Positions 4,249-48,451 of a DNA stretch of 62,224 nucleotides are shown here, in pieces. The stretch covers positions 1 through 62,224 of the forward strand of contig NZ_QLNP01000047.1 in the NCBI RefSeq assembly GCF_003261175.1. The letters run 5' to 3'. Numbering within the stretch: position 1 is the first letter of the stretch; every line of letters starts with the position of its first letter. This DNA comes from Arthrobacter globiformis (lineage in GTDB: Bacteria > Actinomycetota > Actinomycetes > Actinomycetales > Micrococcaceae). The notes beneath the pieces were generated by a model, which saw nothing but the letters and a program-made list of their open reading frames with translations, ran no database searches and was not told the origin of the DNA. The position numbers and the translations under genes were made by a program.

Positions 4249-4358
4249 GCGCTCCATGCCTATTCCAAGGACGAGGACTGACAATTAGATTGGGATTGCG
4301 GTGGCCATGGGTGCGCCCTTCCGGATCTGGCTACCGAGCCCAGTCCGCCGTAAGTCCC
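4249..4358 (+). ncRNA. Structured leader element, copy 2
   Basis: Second copy, between the two phosphoesterase genes. Here the stem is GGGATTGCGGTGG (4292-4304) with CCGCCGTAAGTCCC (4345-4358). Compared with copy 1, several pairs differ on both sides (for example GGC becomes TGC opposite GTA), so pairing survives. The interior core CCGGATCTGGCTACC is unchanged. Since the surrounding genes were duplicated, similarity to copy 1 alone would be expected; the paired changes and the distant third copy argue for selection on structure. Confidence 0.55.
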
Positions 4359-4401
4359 GCGAGTAGCGCGCACCGTCCCCAGGAAGGAGGCCCTCGGCCC
4401 C

Positions 4402-5457
4402 ATGCGTCGCAGTCGTGTTATCGCTGGAACGTCTGCTGTTCTCCTTGGCGTTGCTGGCCTTTGGGCCGCGTCCCTCGCTATCGGCGGTGGGAACACCCCT
4501 GAGGAAGTGCCGCAACCAACTGCGACTTTCGCTGCCCCACGGCCACCGTCACCCAGCAGGCCCAGGGTCCCGGCACCCGATGTTCGGATCGCTGCTGTGG
4601 GTGACATGAATGGCGTCAGGAACGTTGACGCTGATAGCCCGTCCGGCCGGAACGGTGCTGCGATCACCCGGCTCGTGCAGAAGAACCAGATTGACGCGTT
4701 CCTGGGGCTCGGGGACTTCCAGTACGACACCGCGCACTGCGCTGACTACGTGAAGTACTGGACGCCGCTGTGGGGCGGCACCAAGCCCAAGTTGTACTGG
4801 GTGTCCGCCCCCAACCATGACTGGCAGCCAGGCCGCAATGAAGACCTCGACAACTTCATGAACGGCCAATGTCCGGGTGCCCCGGCGAAGGCTGCGATCA
4901 ACCGGCAGCGCGGGTTCATCGGGAACGGGGATCCGTACTCGAAGGACTTTGGCAACTGGCACTTCGTGTTCCTGTCGTCCGCGCAGTGGCGCTACGACCC
5001 CGCGCAGGCTGATGCGCTGACGAAGTGGCTGGATGACGACCTCGCTGCCGCCAGTGCGGAGGGCAAGTACCTGGCGGTCGTGTTTCACGACCCGTACTTC
5101 ACGTCCGACACCGACGCACACGGGCGCTCCACGGAGCTAAAACCGTGGATCGACGTGATGTACAAGCACCGAGTGCGTCTGACCCTGTCAGGGTCACAAC
5201 ACAACTACGAACGCTCATGTCCGGTGAACAACGAGGACCGGTGCGTCAGTGACGGGATGACAGCGTTCCAGGTGTCTACGGGAGGCATCGGCCTCCGCTC
5301 CTTCACGAGCGATCCTTCGTACATCGAAACGCGGTTTAGCGACACCCACGGGTTTCTGCGGATGACACTCAAGGATGACGGGTCTTTCAGCTGGAACTTC
5401 GTTCGCACGTCGGGCTTGAGTTCGGGCACGGATTCAGGAACGCGTCAGGCACCGTAG
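4402..5457 (+). CDS. Secreted metallophosphoesterase, tandem copy 2
   Basis: A 351-residue paralogue of the preceding gene with the same layout: hydrophobic N-terminal segment (residues 5-28), a Pro/Arg-rich linker, then the calcineurin-like domain with VGDMN, LGLGDFQY, APNHDW, VVFHDPYF and SGSQHNYER. The start at 4402 follows AGGAAGGAGG. The linker (EEVPQPTATFAAPRPPSPS) and residues 220-260 are the least conserved parts between the copies, while metal ligands are identical, so both are probably active. Each copy has its own leader element, so they are probably separately controlled at the RNA level even if co-transcribed. Confidence 0.85.
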   Translation: MRRSRVIAGTSAVLLGVAGLWAASLAIGGGNTPEEVPQPTATFAAPRPPSPSRPRVPAPDVRIAAVGDMNGVRNVDADSPSGRNGAAITRLVQKNQIDAFLGLGDFQYDTAHCADYVKYWTPLWGGTKPKLYWVSAPNHDWQPGRNEDLDNFMNGQCPGAPAKAAINRQRGFIGNGDPYSKDFGNWHFVFLSSAQWRYDPAQADALTKWLDDDLAAASAEGKYLAVVFHDPYFTSDTDAHGRSTELKPWIDVMYKHRVRLTLSGSQHNYERSCPVNNEDRCVSDGMTAFQVSTGGIGLRSFTSDPSYIETRFSDTHGFLRMTLKDDGSFSWNFVRTSGLSSGTDSGTRQAP

Positions 5458-5516
5458 CCCTTCGCCGACGGCTAGATCCGGATGGGCCTCCAGGTCGGTC
5501 CGGAATCAGTGGACAC

Positions 5517-6641
5517 CTAGGCGGGCGAGTGCACGGCCACGGACGCCCGCTCAACGGTGGGGCACGCGATCTTCAGCGCGGCGCCGCCGGGTGCCTCATC
5601 CAGGCCGAGGAGCAAGCGGACTCCGGCCGCCCCGAGCTCGTAGTGGGGCAGGGACACCGTGGACAGCGGGGGCCGGAGGTGGGCGGCGATGACTTCCTGG
5701 TTGTCGAAGCCGACGACGGCGATGTCGTCCGGGATGGATCGCCCGGCTTCCCGCAAACCGTCGTACAGCCCCATCGCCATGCGGTCGTTGTAGCAGTACA
5801 CGGCGGTGACATCGCGCTTGAGCAGCTCTTCCGTAGCACCGTATCCGCCTTCCTGGTTCGGATAGGCTTCCAGAACCAGGTGCGGGTCGAACGGAATTCC
5901 GGCTGCCTTCAGCGCTTCCTTGTACCCCTGGAGCCGTCCATCCCTGGCCGGGGCCGGGGTGGTGGCATTAATGAAGGCAATGCTCCGGTGGCCGCCGCGG
6001 AGCAGGATTTCCGTCGCGGACCGTCCGCCCTGCTCTTCATCCGGCACCACGGCACGGGCCGCGCCCGGCTCCGGGGAGAAGCAGTTGACCAGGACGAAGT
6101 CAGCCTCGCGGAGTGTTTCCGGGACGGCCGTGGACCGGTGGAACCACGTCGAGTACAGGATGCCGCGGACCTTGTATTCAAGCATCATGCCGATCGCGTC
6201 CTTTTCGAGGTCGCGGTTTCCCTCGGTGTTGGCGATCAGCAGTGCGTACCCGTGTTTCCACGCCTCGTCCTGCGCCCCGTGGATGATCTGGCCCGCGAAC
6301 GGGGTGGTGGCCACGCCATCAGCGACGAGTCCGATGAACTTCGAGGTGCCGCTGACCAGGGTCTGGGCCATGGCGTTGGGGCGGTAGCCGAGCCGCCGGA
6401 TCGCATCGTTGACACGCTGCCGCGTCTCTTCGGCGATGCGCGCGTTCTTCTTCTTGTTGATCACCAGGGATACCGTGGCGGTGGACACTCCGGCCGCTTC
6501 AGCCACTTCGCGGAGGGTCACGGGGTGGGCGCGCTCAGGTGCCCGCGGCACACGGGCCGAAGGCACCAGCCTGCCCGTGCTTTTCTCCTTTGAAACCATC
6601 TGCCCTCCGTCAGGAGTATATCCGCCTGCCATTGCCGTCAT
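5517..6641 (-). CDS. LacI-family repressor of the fructoside operon
   Basis: A 374-residue LacI-type regulator. The helix-turn-helix is at about residues 41-62 (VTLREVAEAAGVSTATVSLV) with hinge helix RRLGYRPNAMAQTL, followed by a periplasmic-binding-protein-like sensor domain (FIGLVADGV to the C-terminus). The annotated ATG overlaps the stop of the upstream permease (ATGA), which suggests coupled translation; ATG at 6599, just after GGAGGG, is an alternative start. As last gene of the GH32/ABC operon it very likely represses that operon through the two operators at 11309-11372, with the imported sugar as inducer (inference from position). Confidence 0.9.
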   Translation of the reverse strand: MTAMAGGYTPDGGQMVSKEKSTGRLVPSARVPRAPERAHPVTLREVAEAAGVSTATVSLVINKKKNARIAEETRQRVNDAIRRLGYRPNAMAQTLVSGTSKFIGLVADGVATTPFAGQIIHGAQDEAWKHGYALLIANTEGNRDLEKDAIGMMLEYKVRGILYSTWFHRSTAVPETLREADFVLVNCFSPEPGAARAVVPDEEQGGRSATEILLRGGHRSIAFINATTPAPARDGRLQGYKEALKAAGIPFDPHLVLEAYPNQEGGYGATEELLKRDVTAVYCYNDRMAMGLYDGLREAGRSIPDDIAVVGFDNQEVIAAHLRPPLSTVSLPHYELGAAGVRLLLGLDEAPGGAALKIACPTVERASVAVHSPA

Positions 6642-39642: not shown

Positions 39643-39708
39643 CCCAACTAGGTAGCACTTCAAGGCGTTCCCAGCGCTGAGAACGCCCTCAGCTGCTACC
39701 TAGTTGGG
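39643..39708. repeat. Intergenic palindrome, family II
   Basis: Outer arms CCCAACTAGGTAGCA/TGCTACCTAGTTGGG, inner arms GGCGTTC/GAACGCC. Shares the terminal CCCAACT with family I but differs inside. It lies between two convergent genes, starting one base after the DUF2156 stop. Confidence 0.8.
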
Positions 39709-45385: not shown

Positions 45386-46420
45386 TCAGGCGTGGGTGGG
45401 CTCCTCCACCAGCGCCGTGGCAATGCTGTCCGCATCCTCCAGCGCGGCCAGGTAGCGCTCGGCGTCGAGGGCCGCCGCGCAACCGGTTCCGGCGGCGGTG
45501 ATGGCCTGGCGGTAGCGGTGGTCCACGGCGTCCCCGCAGGCGAAGACGCCGCTCAGGTTGGTGCACGTGGTGGGCGAATCCACCTTGATGTACCCCTCGC
45601 CGTCGAGCTCCACCTGCCCGGCCACCAGCTCGGTGCGCGGCACGTGCCCGATCGCCACGAAGAGCCCGGTGGCGGGCTGGTGGCGGGTTTCGCCGCTGCG
45701 CGTGTCCGTCAGCGTGACACCGCTGACCTTGCCGTCGCCGTGGATGGCCGTGACGGCCGAGTTCCAGGCGAACGTGATCTTCGGGTTGTCCTTGGCGCGC
45801 TGCGCCATGATCCGGGAGGCGCGCAGCTCACCCTTCCGGACGACGACGGTCACGGACTTCCCGAAGCGGGTCAGGAAGGTGGCCTCTTCCATGGCGGAAT
45901 CGCCGCCGCCCACCACCATGATGTCCTGGTCGCGGAAGAAGAAACCGTCGCAGGTGGCGCACCAGGAGACGCCGTGGCCGCTGAATTTCTTTTCCTCGGC
46001 CAGCCCGAGTTCCTTGTATGCGGAGCCGGTGGCCAGGATGACAGCCGGGGCCTGGTACGTCTCGCCCGCACCGGTGACCACGCGCTTGAGGTGACCCTTG
46101 AGCTGAACGGAAGTGGCGTCGTCGAACACCACCTGCGCGCCGAACTTTTCGGCCTGCTGTTGCAGGCCGTCCATGAGCTCCGGGCCCTGGACGCCCTCTG
46201 GAAAGCCCGGGAAGTTCTCCACCTCGGTGGTGTTCATCAGTGCGCCGCCGGCCGTGACCGCACCCGCCAGGACCAGCGGTTTCAGGCCGGCCCGTGCCGC
46301 GTAGATGGCCGCGGTGTATCCGGCCGGGCCGGACCCGATGATGATGAGCTGTTCGGTGCTGACCTTGTCAGCGTTGGCCTTCTCGGTGCCGGCGTTCTCG
46401 GGCTTGGCGTTCTTGTTCAC
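45386..46420 (-). CDS. trxB: Thioredoxin reductase
   Basis: Start at the GTG at 46420 behind GAAGGAG; the frame extends to an ATG at 46450, but then the ribosome site would be inside the gene. 344 residues: FAD-binding GSGPAGYTAAIYAARAGL, redox motif CATC in VSWCATCDGF, NADPH-binding VVGGGDSAMEEA, and the C-terminal FAD motif VFACGDAVDHRYRQA. An extra 25-residue Lys/Glu/Ala-rich tail precedes the fold. As last gene of the ars operon it would recycle thioredoxin, which serves arsenate reduction. Confidence 0.95.
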   Translation of the reverse strand: MNKNAKPENAGTEKANADKVSTEQLIIIGSGPAGYTAAIYAARAGLKPLVLAGAVTAGGALMNTTEVENFPGFPEGVQGPELMDGLQQQAEKFGAQVVFDDATSVQLKGHLKRVVTGAGETYQAPAVILATGSAYKELGLAEEKKFSGHGVSWCATCDGFFFRDQDIMVVGGGDSAMEEATFLTRFGKSVTVVVRKGELRASRIMAQRAKDNPKITFAWNSAVTAIHGDGKVSGVTLTDTRSGETRHQPATGLFVAIGHVPRTELVAGQVELDGEGYIKVDSPTTCTNLSGVFACGDAVDHRYRQAITAAGTGCAAALDAERYLAALEDADSIATALVEEPTHA

Positions 46421-46459
46421 TGCTGGCTCCTTCTCTTCGGGCTCATTCACGGGAAGCTG

Positions 46460-46894
46460 TTACTGGGCGTCGACGTGGCGCGCGGGCAGCAGCTCGGTGA
46501 CCAGGGCTTCGATGCGGGTGTGGATCTCGTCGCGGATGGGCCGCACGGCATCGATGCCCTGGCCCGCGGGGTCCTCCAGCACCCAGTCCTCGTAGCGCTT
46601 GCCCGGGAAGTACGGGCACTCGTCGCCGCAGCCCATGGTGATCACGACGTCGGACTCCTTGACCGCCTCGGTGGTGAGGATCTTGGGGACCTCGGCGGAC
46701 ATGTCGATGCCGACTTCGGCCATGGCCTTCACCGCGGCCGGGTTCACTGCCTCCGCGGGCTGCGAGCCGGCGGAACGCACCTCGATTGCGCCCCGGGACA
46801 GGCTGGTGAGGAACGCCGCCGCCATCTGGGACCGGCCGGCGTTGTGCACGCAGACGAACAGGACGGAGGGCTTCTTGGCGGGGTCAGCGGTCAT
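46460..46894 (-). CDS. arsC: Arsenate reductase, low-MW-phosphatase type
   Basis: A 144-residue ArsC of the thioredoxin-dependent family: P-loop CVHNAGRSQ (CX5R; nucleophile Cys about 15), catalytic Asp region VLEDPAG, and the second redox Cys in MGCGDECPY. Reduces As(V) to As(III). The start follows AGGAGAAC. The tail (HVDAQ) is short. Between it and trxB are 39 bp; upstream lie a hairpin and the Cys-rich peptide gene, same strand. Confidence 0.93.
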   Translation of the reverse strand: MTADPAKKPSVLFVCVHNAGRSQMAAAFLTSLSRGAIEVRSAGSQPAEAVNPAAVKAMAEVGIDMSAEVPKILTTEAVKESDVVITMGCGDECPYFPGKRYEDWVLEDPAGQGIDAVRPIRDEIHTRIEALVTELLPARHVDAQ

Positions 46895-47041
46895 GGTGTT
46901 CTCCTAGGCTGGTGGTCTGTATGGCGAGATTGCGGAAAGAAGCGCCTGCCCGCCCACAGCGCCGCTTACACAAGTGCAACAAGTGTGGGCAGTTCAATCA
47001 AGAGCAGGATCAAGGGCGGTGCGTCCGTGCAGGCAGGACAG

Positions 47042-47069
47042 GCCTGCCCGTCGTCCGGGGCGGGCAGGC
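47042..47069 (-). terminator. Hairpin inside the ars operon
   Basis: GCCTGCCCG and CGGGCAGGC form a perfect 9-bp stem with a 10-nt loop, between the peptide gene and arsC. It could be a partial terminator or a processing signal that sets the ratio of peptide to ArsC. Confidence 0.5.
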
Positions 47070-47097
47070 GCGTGGATGTTCTGGTGTGCCGGAGCGG

Positions 47098-47154
47098 TCA
47101 GCAGCAATCCTGGCCGTCCTCGCAGCACTCGTCGTCGCAGCAGCCGGTGCTCAT
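47098..47154 (-). CDS. Cys-rich 18-residue peptide in the ars operon
   Basis: Too short for ordinary gene finding. Reads MSTGCCDDECCEDGQDCC and stop; six of 18 residues are Cys, in three vicinal pairs separated by acidic residues. The ribosome site GGAGGAGGTGAAGGG is the best in this operon and 7 bases from the ATG. It lies 21 bp after the MIP channel gene and before arsC, same strand. Vicinal Cys pairs bind As(III) in ArsD and ArsR proteins, so the peptide may hold arsenite, or feed it to the channel (inference). Alternatively it is a cysteine-sensing leader, since its translation would stall when Cys is low. I know no family for it. Confidence 0.65.
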   Translation of the reverse strand: MSTGCCDDECCEDGQDCC

Positions 47155-47175
47155 CCCTTCACCTCCTCCCCTTTG

Positions 47176-47913
47176 CTAGCGGGATTGGTCTTTGGCCAGC
47201 GGATGCTCGTTGACCGGCTCAAGAGCCGGCTCGTCCACCGCCGGCTCAAGCGCCGGCGCCGCCGGGTACAGGGCACGCACGAGCACAAATCCCACGGCAC
47301 CGCCGAGCAGCTGGGCCAGGACGAAGGCGGGCGCCGACGCCGGGGCGATGCCCGCGAAGGTGTCCGTGATGGTCCTGGCTATGGTCACGGCGGGGTTGGC
47401 GAAGCTGGTGGAACTGGTGAACCAGTAGGCCGCGGTGATGTAGCCGCCGACGGCGAAGGCCACCCGGTCCGTCCTGCCCGAGCGGAGGGTGCCGAACACA
47501 ATAACCAGCAGCCCCGCCGTCGCCATAACTTCGCCCAGCCAGAGCCCGGCGCCGGCCCGTTCGTGGCTTGAGAATGTCACCGCGTCCAGCCCGAACATCA
47601 GGTTGGCCAGAACAGATCCGGCCAGGCCGCCCGCTAACTGGGCCGCGATCAGCCCCGCCGCGGTCCGGGTGTCCAGCACGCCCAGCACCCGCTCGGCGAG
47701 GGTCACCACCGGATTGAACGACGCCGACACCGGCTGGAGCGCCACAATCAGCGCGACCAGTGCCGCGCCCGTGGCGAGGCTGTTCTGCAAGAGCTGCAGC
47801 CCGACGTCGTCCGGCGACAGCCGCGACGCCATCATGCCGGAGCCGACGACGGCCATGACCAGAAACGCTGTCCCCGTGAACTCCGCAGCCGCGCGCCGTG
47901 CCAACGTGCTCAT
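47176..47913 (-). CDS. MIP-family channel, AqpS-like, in the ars operon
   Basis: Start at the ATG at 47913, which overlaps the arsR stop (ATGA). 245 residues, six TM helices, two pore loops: the first NPA is changed to NPV (SFNPVVT), the second is NPA (SFANPAVT). In Sinorhizobium meliloti, the operon arsR-aqpS-arsC uses an aquaglyceroporin to let As(III) flow out after ArsC makes it; the gene order here is the same. No ArsB or Acr3 pump is present in the window. The C-terminus has ALEPAVDEPALEPVNEHPLA, an acidic repeat. Confidence 0.88.
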   Translation of the reverse strand: MSTLARRAAAEFTGTAFLVMAVVGSGMMASRLSPDDVGLQLLQNSLATGAALVALIVALQPVSASFNPVVTLAERVLGVLDTRTAAGLIAAQLAGGLAGSVLANLMFGLDAVTFSSHERAGAGLWLGEVMATAGLLVIVFGTLRSGRTDRVAFAVGGYITAAYWFTSSTSFANPAVTIARTITDTFAGIAPASAPAFVLAQLLGGAVGFVLVRALYPAAPALEPAVDEPALEPVNEHPLAKDQSR

Positions 47914-48260
47914 TTGCTGTGGCCCCCGATCAGGGTAGCCAGATTCGCCAGGGCATCGGTCCGCGCCCGGTAGTACACCCACACCCCGCGCTTTTCCCGC
48001 TCGAGGAGGCCGGCTGCGTGAAGGACCTTCAGATGGTGGCTGATGGTGGGCTGCGAAAGATCGAAAGCGCCGTTCAGGTCGCAGACGCAGGCCTCGCCAC
48101 CCTCATGCGAGGCCACGAGCGACATCAGCCGCAGCCGCACCGGGTCCGCCAGCGCCTTGAGCAGCGGCGCAATGCCTTCCGCCTCGGTCGCGGACAGGGG
48201 TTCCCTGGACAGCGGCGAACAGCAGGCAACCGTCTGCACCGGGGTGAGTTCCAAATTCAT
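47910..48260 (-). CDS. arsR: ArsR-family arsenic-sensing repressor
   Basis: Start at the ATG at 48260; a longer frame to 48335 covers the promoter. 116 residues: winged helix with LLKALADPVRLRLMSLVASH, the metal motif ACVCDLNGAF (the ELCVCDL type, Cys pair for As(III)/Sb(III)), recognition helix SQPTISHHLKVLHAAGLLER, and the wing KRGVWVYYRA. A further Cys pair (VACCSPL) precedes the helix. It represses the ars operon until As(III) binds. The palindrome upstream is its likely site. Confidence 0.92.
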   Translation of the reverse strand: MNLELTPVQTVACCSPLSREPLSATEAEGIAPLLKALADPVRLRLMSLVASHEGGEACVCDLNGAFDLSQPTISHHLKVLHAAGLLEREKRGVWVYYRARTDALANLATLIGGHSK

Positions 48261-48268
48261 AGACACAC

Positions 48269-48280
48269 GTAAATATTTAC
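48269..48280. promoter_or_regulatory. arsR: Palindrome in the ars promoter
   Basis: GTAAATATTTAC is a perfect 12-bp dyad 9 bp upstream of arsR, and is flanked by CATAGA (48258-48263) and TCTATG (48286-48291), an outer inverted repeat with the same centre. AT-rich in a GC-rich neighbourhood; probable ArsR operator overlapping the promoter. Confidence 0.6.
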
Positions 48281-48451
48281 ACTCATCTATGTCTAAGGCA
48301 AGGTGCTTCCCACTGCTGAAGAGCTGGGGCGCCAATTACCGGCCGTCCGGTATCCATTGCTGGCCTCGGGTGCGGGGTCCACTATAGAGAGGAGCGGCAA
48401 GGCTCGCACCGGCCGTCAGCGCCCATGGCCGGACGGATCTAGGGGGCACCC

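Follow-up and report, generated by a model that had tools for sequence, protein, structure and literature searches.

The arsenic operon of the window (the whole stretch of 62,224 nucleotides of Arthrobacter globiformis DNA analysed here) raises the question of whether a frame of only 18 residues is a gene in its own right and, if so, what its product may do with arsenite. On the minus strand, the operon reads arsR-MIP-peptide-arsC-trxB. The arsR gene (47910..48260, minus strand) scores 93.8 bits against NF033788, with a cut-off of 55, and its product has a CC pair near the N-terminus and an ACVCD motif. It is followed on the same strand by a gene for a MIP/aquaporin-type channel (47176..47913; TIGR00861, 70.1 bits, below the 171.25 cut-off), by arsC for an arsenate reductase of the LMW-phosphatase type (46460..46894; TIGR02689, 95.3 bits, below the 157.6 cut-off) and by trxB for a thioredoxin reductase (45386..46450; TIGR01292, 380.8 bits, cut-off 343.45). 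The peptide gene, encoding MSTGCCDDECCEDGQDCC, occupies positions 47098..47154 of the minus strand, stop codon included, with gaps of 21 nt to the MIP stop and 203 nt to the arsC start. Its product holds three vicinal Cys pairs, of which Cys5-Cys6, together with Cys11, form a CC-x4-C motif; the cysteines come as CC pairs only, with neither CxC nor CxxC. The sequence upstream of the gene reads CAAAGGGGAGGAGGTGAAGGG-ATG and includes a near-perfect Shine-Dalgarno, GGGGAGGAGGTG, at 47160..47171 (minus strand), 5 nt from the ATG. The coordinates, the excellent ribosome site, the position between a MIP channel and arsC and the three Cys pairs in 18 residues had all been given in the original prediction, and each was recovered exactly; that prediction was silent on the strand, which is the minus one, the plus strand at 47098-47154 encoding another sequence than MSTGCCDDECCEDGQDCC.

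As for the pump, the operon had been described as having a channel only. This stands for the operon itself, whose genes are those listed above, and the genome of the window yielded neither an ACR3 (TIGR00832) nor an ArsA (E ≤ 1e-50). At the genome level the statement is weakened by one match to PF02040 (ArsB), which at 79.9 bits is over the Pfam cut-off (contig C67, 201285-202307), so that a pump may still exist there. Because this protein falls far under the NCBIfam cut-offs for ArsB (122.7 vs. 457 and 100.8 vs. 415), it is probably another ion transporter of the ArsB superfamily. The pump search covered ACR3, ArsA and ArsB.

Relatives of the MIP protein were found in 157 of the 199 genomes of the genus and fall for the most part into two identity groups, at about 76-94% and 53-59%. 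Fifty loci of the closer group were examined, a set outside which lie the close matches of three genomes (G132, G008 and G097). The peptide is present in 14 of these 50 operons, in 13 as a three-pair form and in one (L045) as a divergent form. The order in the 13 three-pair genomes is MIP-peptide in six, the window's included, and MIP-arsC-peptide in seven. In one of the 36 others (L042), the peptide's slot just after ArsC (position 5138 on) is taken by a frame that has a ribosome site and opens with MTTGCCGN... but holds no further Cys pairs; it is probably a decayed copy. Given its patchy distribution and this one apparently decayed copy, the peptide is accessory. A peptide HMM matched 24 of the 199 genomes, many of the matches lying in a second operon type, divergent from the other MIP group. 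Since this HMM, whose recall is incomplete, missed four genomes otherwise shown to carry the peptide (G022, G152, G158 and G192), at least 28 of the 199 genomes possess it. Conservation of the frame in related ars operons, proposed as the check, was confirmed in part: wherever the peptide is present, in these genomes and in two other genera, start, stop and Cys pairs are kept, but 36 of the 50 related MIP operons lack it.

The collection comprises 35 distinct coding sequences, giving 30 distinct peptides of 12, 17-20, 22 or 29 aa, with a rough consensus of M-x-[T/N]-G-C-C-[G/D]-D-x(0-2)-C-C-[D/E]-x(n)-[Q/E]-D-C-C-stop. Similar G-rich ribosome sites precede the frames of the relatives. The collecting patterns take only in-frame Cys-pair forms, so that conservation of length, of cysteines and of whole codons is partly selected by the search, whereas the excess of synonymous changes is not produced by it. 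For 117 of the 120 pairs of 16 ungapped 18-mers, mean dN was 0.115 against a mean dS of 0.569 (ratio of about 0.2), substitution values which show the frame to be under purifying selection. The peptide MSTGCCDDECCEDGQDCC itself is written in five different codings, and cysteine is encoded in the family by 204 TGC and 7 TGT codons. The family pattern has exceptions: G123 has one Cys changed to Arg, plasmid pYA7-1b carries only two pairs, as an in-frame loss between repeated Cys codons would leave, L045 has a divergent form and L110 a long one. Short frames with two pairs (e.g. L010, L132, L165, L172, L195, L201 and L202) were dropped as chance frames lacking a proper ribosome site. The full alignment showed no conserved stretch, and a scan of public genomes with a narrower one gave only four close loci (Arthrobacter sp. 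131MFCol6.1, AFG20, ISL-65 and A. ipis IA7).

Concerning the taxonomic range, a draw of 295 genomes of the family gave ten HMM matches at E ≤ 1, of which only those in G000 (the window's genome), G002, G341 and G401 were convincing, two of the four lying outside the genus. Three further carriers, which this search did not list, were added by inspecting the arsC flanks in 39 usable regions, of which 38 came from other genera of Micrococcaceae: G271, with MDENCCTETGCCTNGTGCC, and G393 and G418, both with MDTCCCNNSCQNGCCEDQDCC. A draw of 346 genomes of the phylum produced two matches at E ≤ 0.1, both within the genus, and an ArsO-anchored search over the order found the peptide in one of the 30 loci opened (1.5 kb flanks), again in the genus of the window (L139, genome G002). 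In the scans made, the family is seen only in Micrococcaceae; an 18-residue model is short-reaching, and divergent members elsewhere may be missed. No description of such a peptide was met in the titles and abstract openings of the literature searched, whose coverage leaves out most subscription journals and preprints.

The neighbours of the peptide were checked at 39 loci (the 35 and four loci of divergent members or their surroundings) with ArsR, MIP, ArsC, TrxB, ArsO, ACR3 and ArsA proteins. In 38 of them, ars genes lie within 3.5 kb of the peptide, the exception being L110. The next downstream ars gene in these 38 loci is ArsO in 26, arsC in four and arsA in two, while six have none. An ACR3 gene is present in four of the 39 loci (L099, L101, L104 and L208), upstream of the peptide (the L101 protein passes TIGR00832 with 420.7 vs. 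282.8), so that the peptide is not bound to pumpless operons. The name ArsO is used here with care, since the match of the ArsO-like protein to NF040505 is partial (residues 8-59 only) and, with 57 of 425 bits, far below the cut-off. In all five Arthrobacter/Paenarthrobacter plasmids examined, the peptide sits between trxB and the ArsO-like gene; three plasmids of other families have no such peptide within 4.5 kb of that gene. On the basis of sequence, the conserved frame, the constant company of arsenic genes and the changing operon slot point to a micro-protein gene of the ars operon that is probably translated, and we regard it as virtually certain that the peptide gene is real.

Several observations concern these neighbours. 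On pTC2 (L159), the ArsO-like CDS is annotated at 4360-5889 as a 'putative Secreted protein', with a start inside the peptide frame (4349-4411), and this start is probably misannotated. The C-terminal tails of ArsO-like proteins, e.g. L096 5947-7332, hold a widely conserved vicinal Cys pair (...GGCCGAPEPVLVGFPTGL...), which suggests that they may bind As(III) too; an ArsO-like protein from another family (L148) also has C-terminal Cys pairs, hence a general feature of ArsO tails. A functional exchange between the peptide and this tail was rejected, the CC tail being missing in 5 of 24 distinct C-termini with the peptide vs. 2 of 30 without it (Fisher p = 0.22). In L110, a longer relative, MNTGCCGDDCCEHGCRGDDCCDDCCDDDD, is encoded at 4742-4831 of the minus strand behind the same kind of ribosome site, near DUF4396, DUF305 and DUF3105 genes, and the surrounding 3 kb yielded no ars gene.

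The likeness to ArsD, the basis of the functional proposal, concerns the cysteines in the first place. In ArsD, Cys12, Cys13 and Cys18 are reported as the As(III) transfer site needed for chaperone activity (PMC4562236), and the R773 protein has three vicinal Cys pairs (PMC4562236, PMC12607644), as has the window peptide. The spacing of the transfer site, CC-x4-C, is shared without exception by the 33 distinct peptides, 30 from the collection above and three divergent. Their first Cys spacer is 3 in 17 peptides and 4 in 14, with 8 and 10 in the remaining two, where CC-x4-C is formed in another way, and the second spacer, present in 30 peptides, varies between 3 and 9. Among the ArsDs of Arthrobacter, several likewise have GCCGGSTSCC at the C-terminus. 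A vicinal Cys pair with a third cysteine likewise makes up the As(III) sites of AfArsR (Cys95/96/102) and CgArsR (Cys15/16/55) (PMC4562236), although there the site belongs to a DNA-binding protein. The differences from ArsD are of size and fold: full ArsDs among these genomes have 128-134 aa and a folded domain, whereas the peptides have 12-29 aa. By model match, the peptide is outside the ArsD family, the 21-aa form of G393 giving no match to NCBIfam models including NF033727, while a control ArsD (L214) scored 108 for a cut-off of 90. Homology to ArsD is beyond proof from eighteen residues.

The slot is that of G393 and G418, which belong to another genus and have the order MIP, arsC, second arsC, arsR, peptide, arsA. 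Here, the peptide takes the place of arsD in arsR-arsD-arsA operons, the likely arsA ATG lying 11 nt past its stop, and no ArsD was found in the two loci. The ATPase of G418 is an ArsA (TIGR04291, 793.3 for a cut-off of 650); the G393 copy is 99% identical to it and has one internal TAG. Because the loci are near-identical, they count as one case and not two. In G298, of the same genus, arsA is preceded by arsC, and neither the peptide nor an ArsD was seen before it. Nor does the peptide stand directly before arsA in the window, whose genome has no ArsA match. Together, the spacing in 33 of 33 peptides and the arsD slot in two closely related genomes strengthen the analogy with ArsD that had been drawn from the Cys pairs. 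As a separate observation, shortened ArsD-like frames stand directly before arsA in Micrococcaceae, at L224 1346-1486 (46 aa), L236 1345-1473 (42 aa) and L241 1226-1486 (oriented; 86 aa) and in L218 (about 20 aa). They retain part of the Cys clusters and may reflect erosion or functional miniaturisation.

As(III) binding by the peptide is likely. A free decapeptide with CC-x5-C, Ac-NCCHGTRDCA-NH2, binds As(III) 1:1 as AsS3, with a log K of 6.35 at pH 7.5 (PMC11212059), and we infer comparable binding by the window peptide, which adds a further CC pair to its CC-x4-C. The reading we favour, with a probability of about 0.7, is that the peptide is expressed and serves as a cytosolic As(III) ligand, acting as the metal site of ArsD does. 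Once ArsR had released the operon, the peptide would be made from its strong ribosome site, and its six thiols, kept reduced in the cytosol, would bind As(III) through CC-x4-C, by analogy with Cys12/13/18 of ArsD, and through the terminal CC pair. As(III) produced by ArsC or leaking in would be kept off cellular thiols, and the carried As(III) would leave through MIP, ACR3 or ArsA, or be used by ArsO. The peptide would in this way play the role of the ArsD metal-binding site without ArsD's folded body. Least certain is whether the peptide would, like ArsD, pass its As(III) on to a specific partner, a step which we advance only tentatively. In this genus, the receiver would not be ArsA, since none of the 28 peptide-bearing genomes is among the 34 of 199 with an ArsA (E ≤ 1e-50; hypergeometric P = 0.0034, kinship ignored); if there is one, the candidates would include MIP, ACR3 and ArsO. 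The fullest version of the proposal, a stand-alone micro-metallochaperone in which the As(III) site of ArsD is cut to about 18 residues, is a speculative one that we hold with more doubt than confidence. Such a peptide would have replaced ArsD in front of ArsA in one lineage and would elsewhere work for MIP channels, ACR3 or ArsO; it would have arisen by convergence or by erosion of an ArsD, shortened forms of which are described above.

As regards its significance, none of the five Arthrobacter/Paenarthrobacter plasmid records examined lists this family of resistance-operon genes, about 18 residues long, in its gene table (the PLSDB gene table being incomplete). Should the peptide carry As(III), a working metallochaperone could be much smaller than ArsD, and a cytosolic arsenic carrier would exist in operons so far credited with a pump or a channel only. 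Sensing and remediation could also make use of it as a compact, genetically encoded putative arsenite ligand.

Bacterial metallothioneins and plant phytochelatins are small and Cys-rich, with acidic residues beside the cysteines and, in metallothioneins, CxC clusters. A peptide of that kind would be a sink only, holding As(III) without passing it on. The sequences, acidic, Cys-rich and with little else conserved, agree with this, as do the strong ribosome sites of the relatives and the 28 genomes with the peptide and without ArsA, and we consider a sink a serious contender, if not quite an even bet. The near-constant first spacer (3 or 4), next to a variable second one, and the arsD slot before arsA in the two related genomes speak against a mere sink. 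The window peptide lacks the CxC clusters of metallothioneins and, unlike enzymatic phytochelatins, is ribosomal.

A role as thiol redox partner, e.g. in passing electrons from TrxB to ArsC or as a substrate of ArsO, draws on the presence of arsC and trxB in the operon, on the lack of a thioredoxin among its five annotated proteins and on the frequent position of the peptide beside trxB and ArsO. It is made improbable by the absence of CxxC from the window peptide and by five loci (L034, L068, L070, L116 and L117) in whose surrounding stretches no trxB was detected. Another soft metal (Hg, Cu, Cd, Zn or Sb) bound more than As in vivo is also unlikely: thiolate chemistry would permit it, above all for Hg(II), which thiol peptides hold far tighter than As(III) (PMC11212059), and the longer L110 form lies beside DUF305 and DUF4396 genes and not ars genes, but the remaining 38 loci are ars loci.

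The runs of Cys codons also recall the polycysteine leaderless ORFs of mycobacteria (Canestrari 2020, via PMC9031893), tiny frames with consecutive Cys codons like that of the window, and the frame could then be a leader attenuating the downstream gene. A hairpin, GCCTGCCCG/CGGGCAGGC with a loop of 10, does lie 3' of the peptide at 47042..47069 (minus strand), with no T-run after it, and the 80 nt past the peptide stop fold with z < -2 against dinucleotide shuffles in 25 of the 35 loci. In contrast to the mycobacterial ORFs, the peptide has a Shine-Dalgarno and sits inside or at the end of operons. Its spacer length and acidic residues are conserved, and only convergent genes follow it in G341, where a strong hairpin comes after the last gene, and in G401, apart from a doubtful ORF. 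Since the downstream gene varies and six of the 38 ars loci have no further ars gene, a leader was set aside as highly improbable; for the same varying content, the hairpin is read not as an attenuator but as an element that ends or stabilises the transcript in favour of the peptide. Finally, a chance frame, which so short a sequence might suggest, is next to inconceivable: the frame is conserved in relatives, MSTGCCDDECCEDGQDCC is the sole three-Cys-pair frame among the 1541 window start positions opening frames of 10-40 aa, and none occurred in 60 first-order Markov sequences of window length, simulated from window composition only.

Across the operon, an Rfam search gave no match at E ≤ 1, and a consensus scan of 46850-48450 found a single terminator-like site, which lies within the MIP gene, but no promoter of the sigma-70 type. 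A palindromic repeat, CCCAACTAGGTAGCA...GCTACCTAGTTGGG, with variants, lies 11-22 nt past the peptide stop in seven of the 35 loci (L082, L097, L098, L101, L103, L106 and L109), and the same repeat is also found elsewhere in the window, at 39643-39708.
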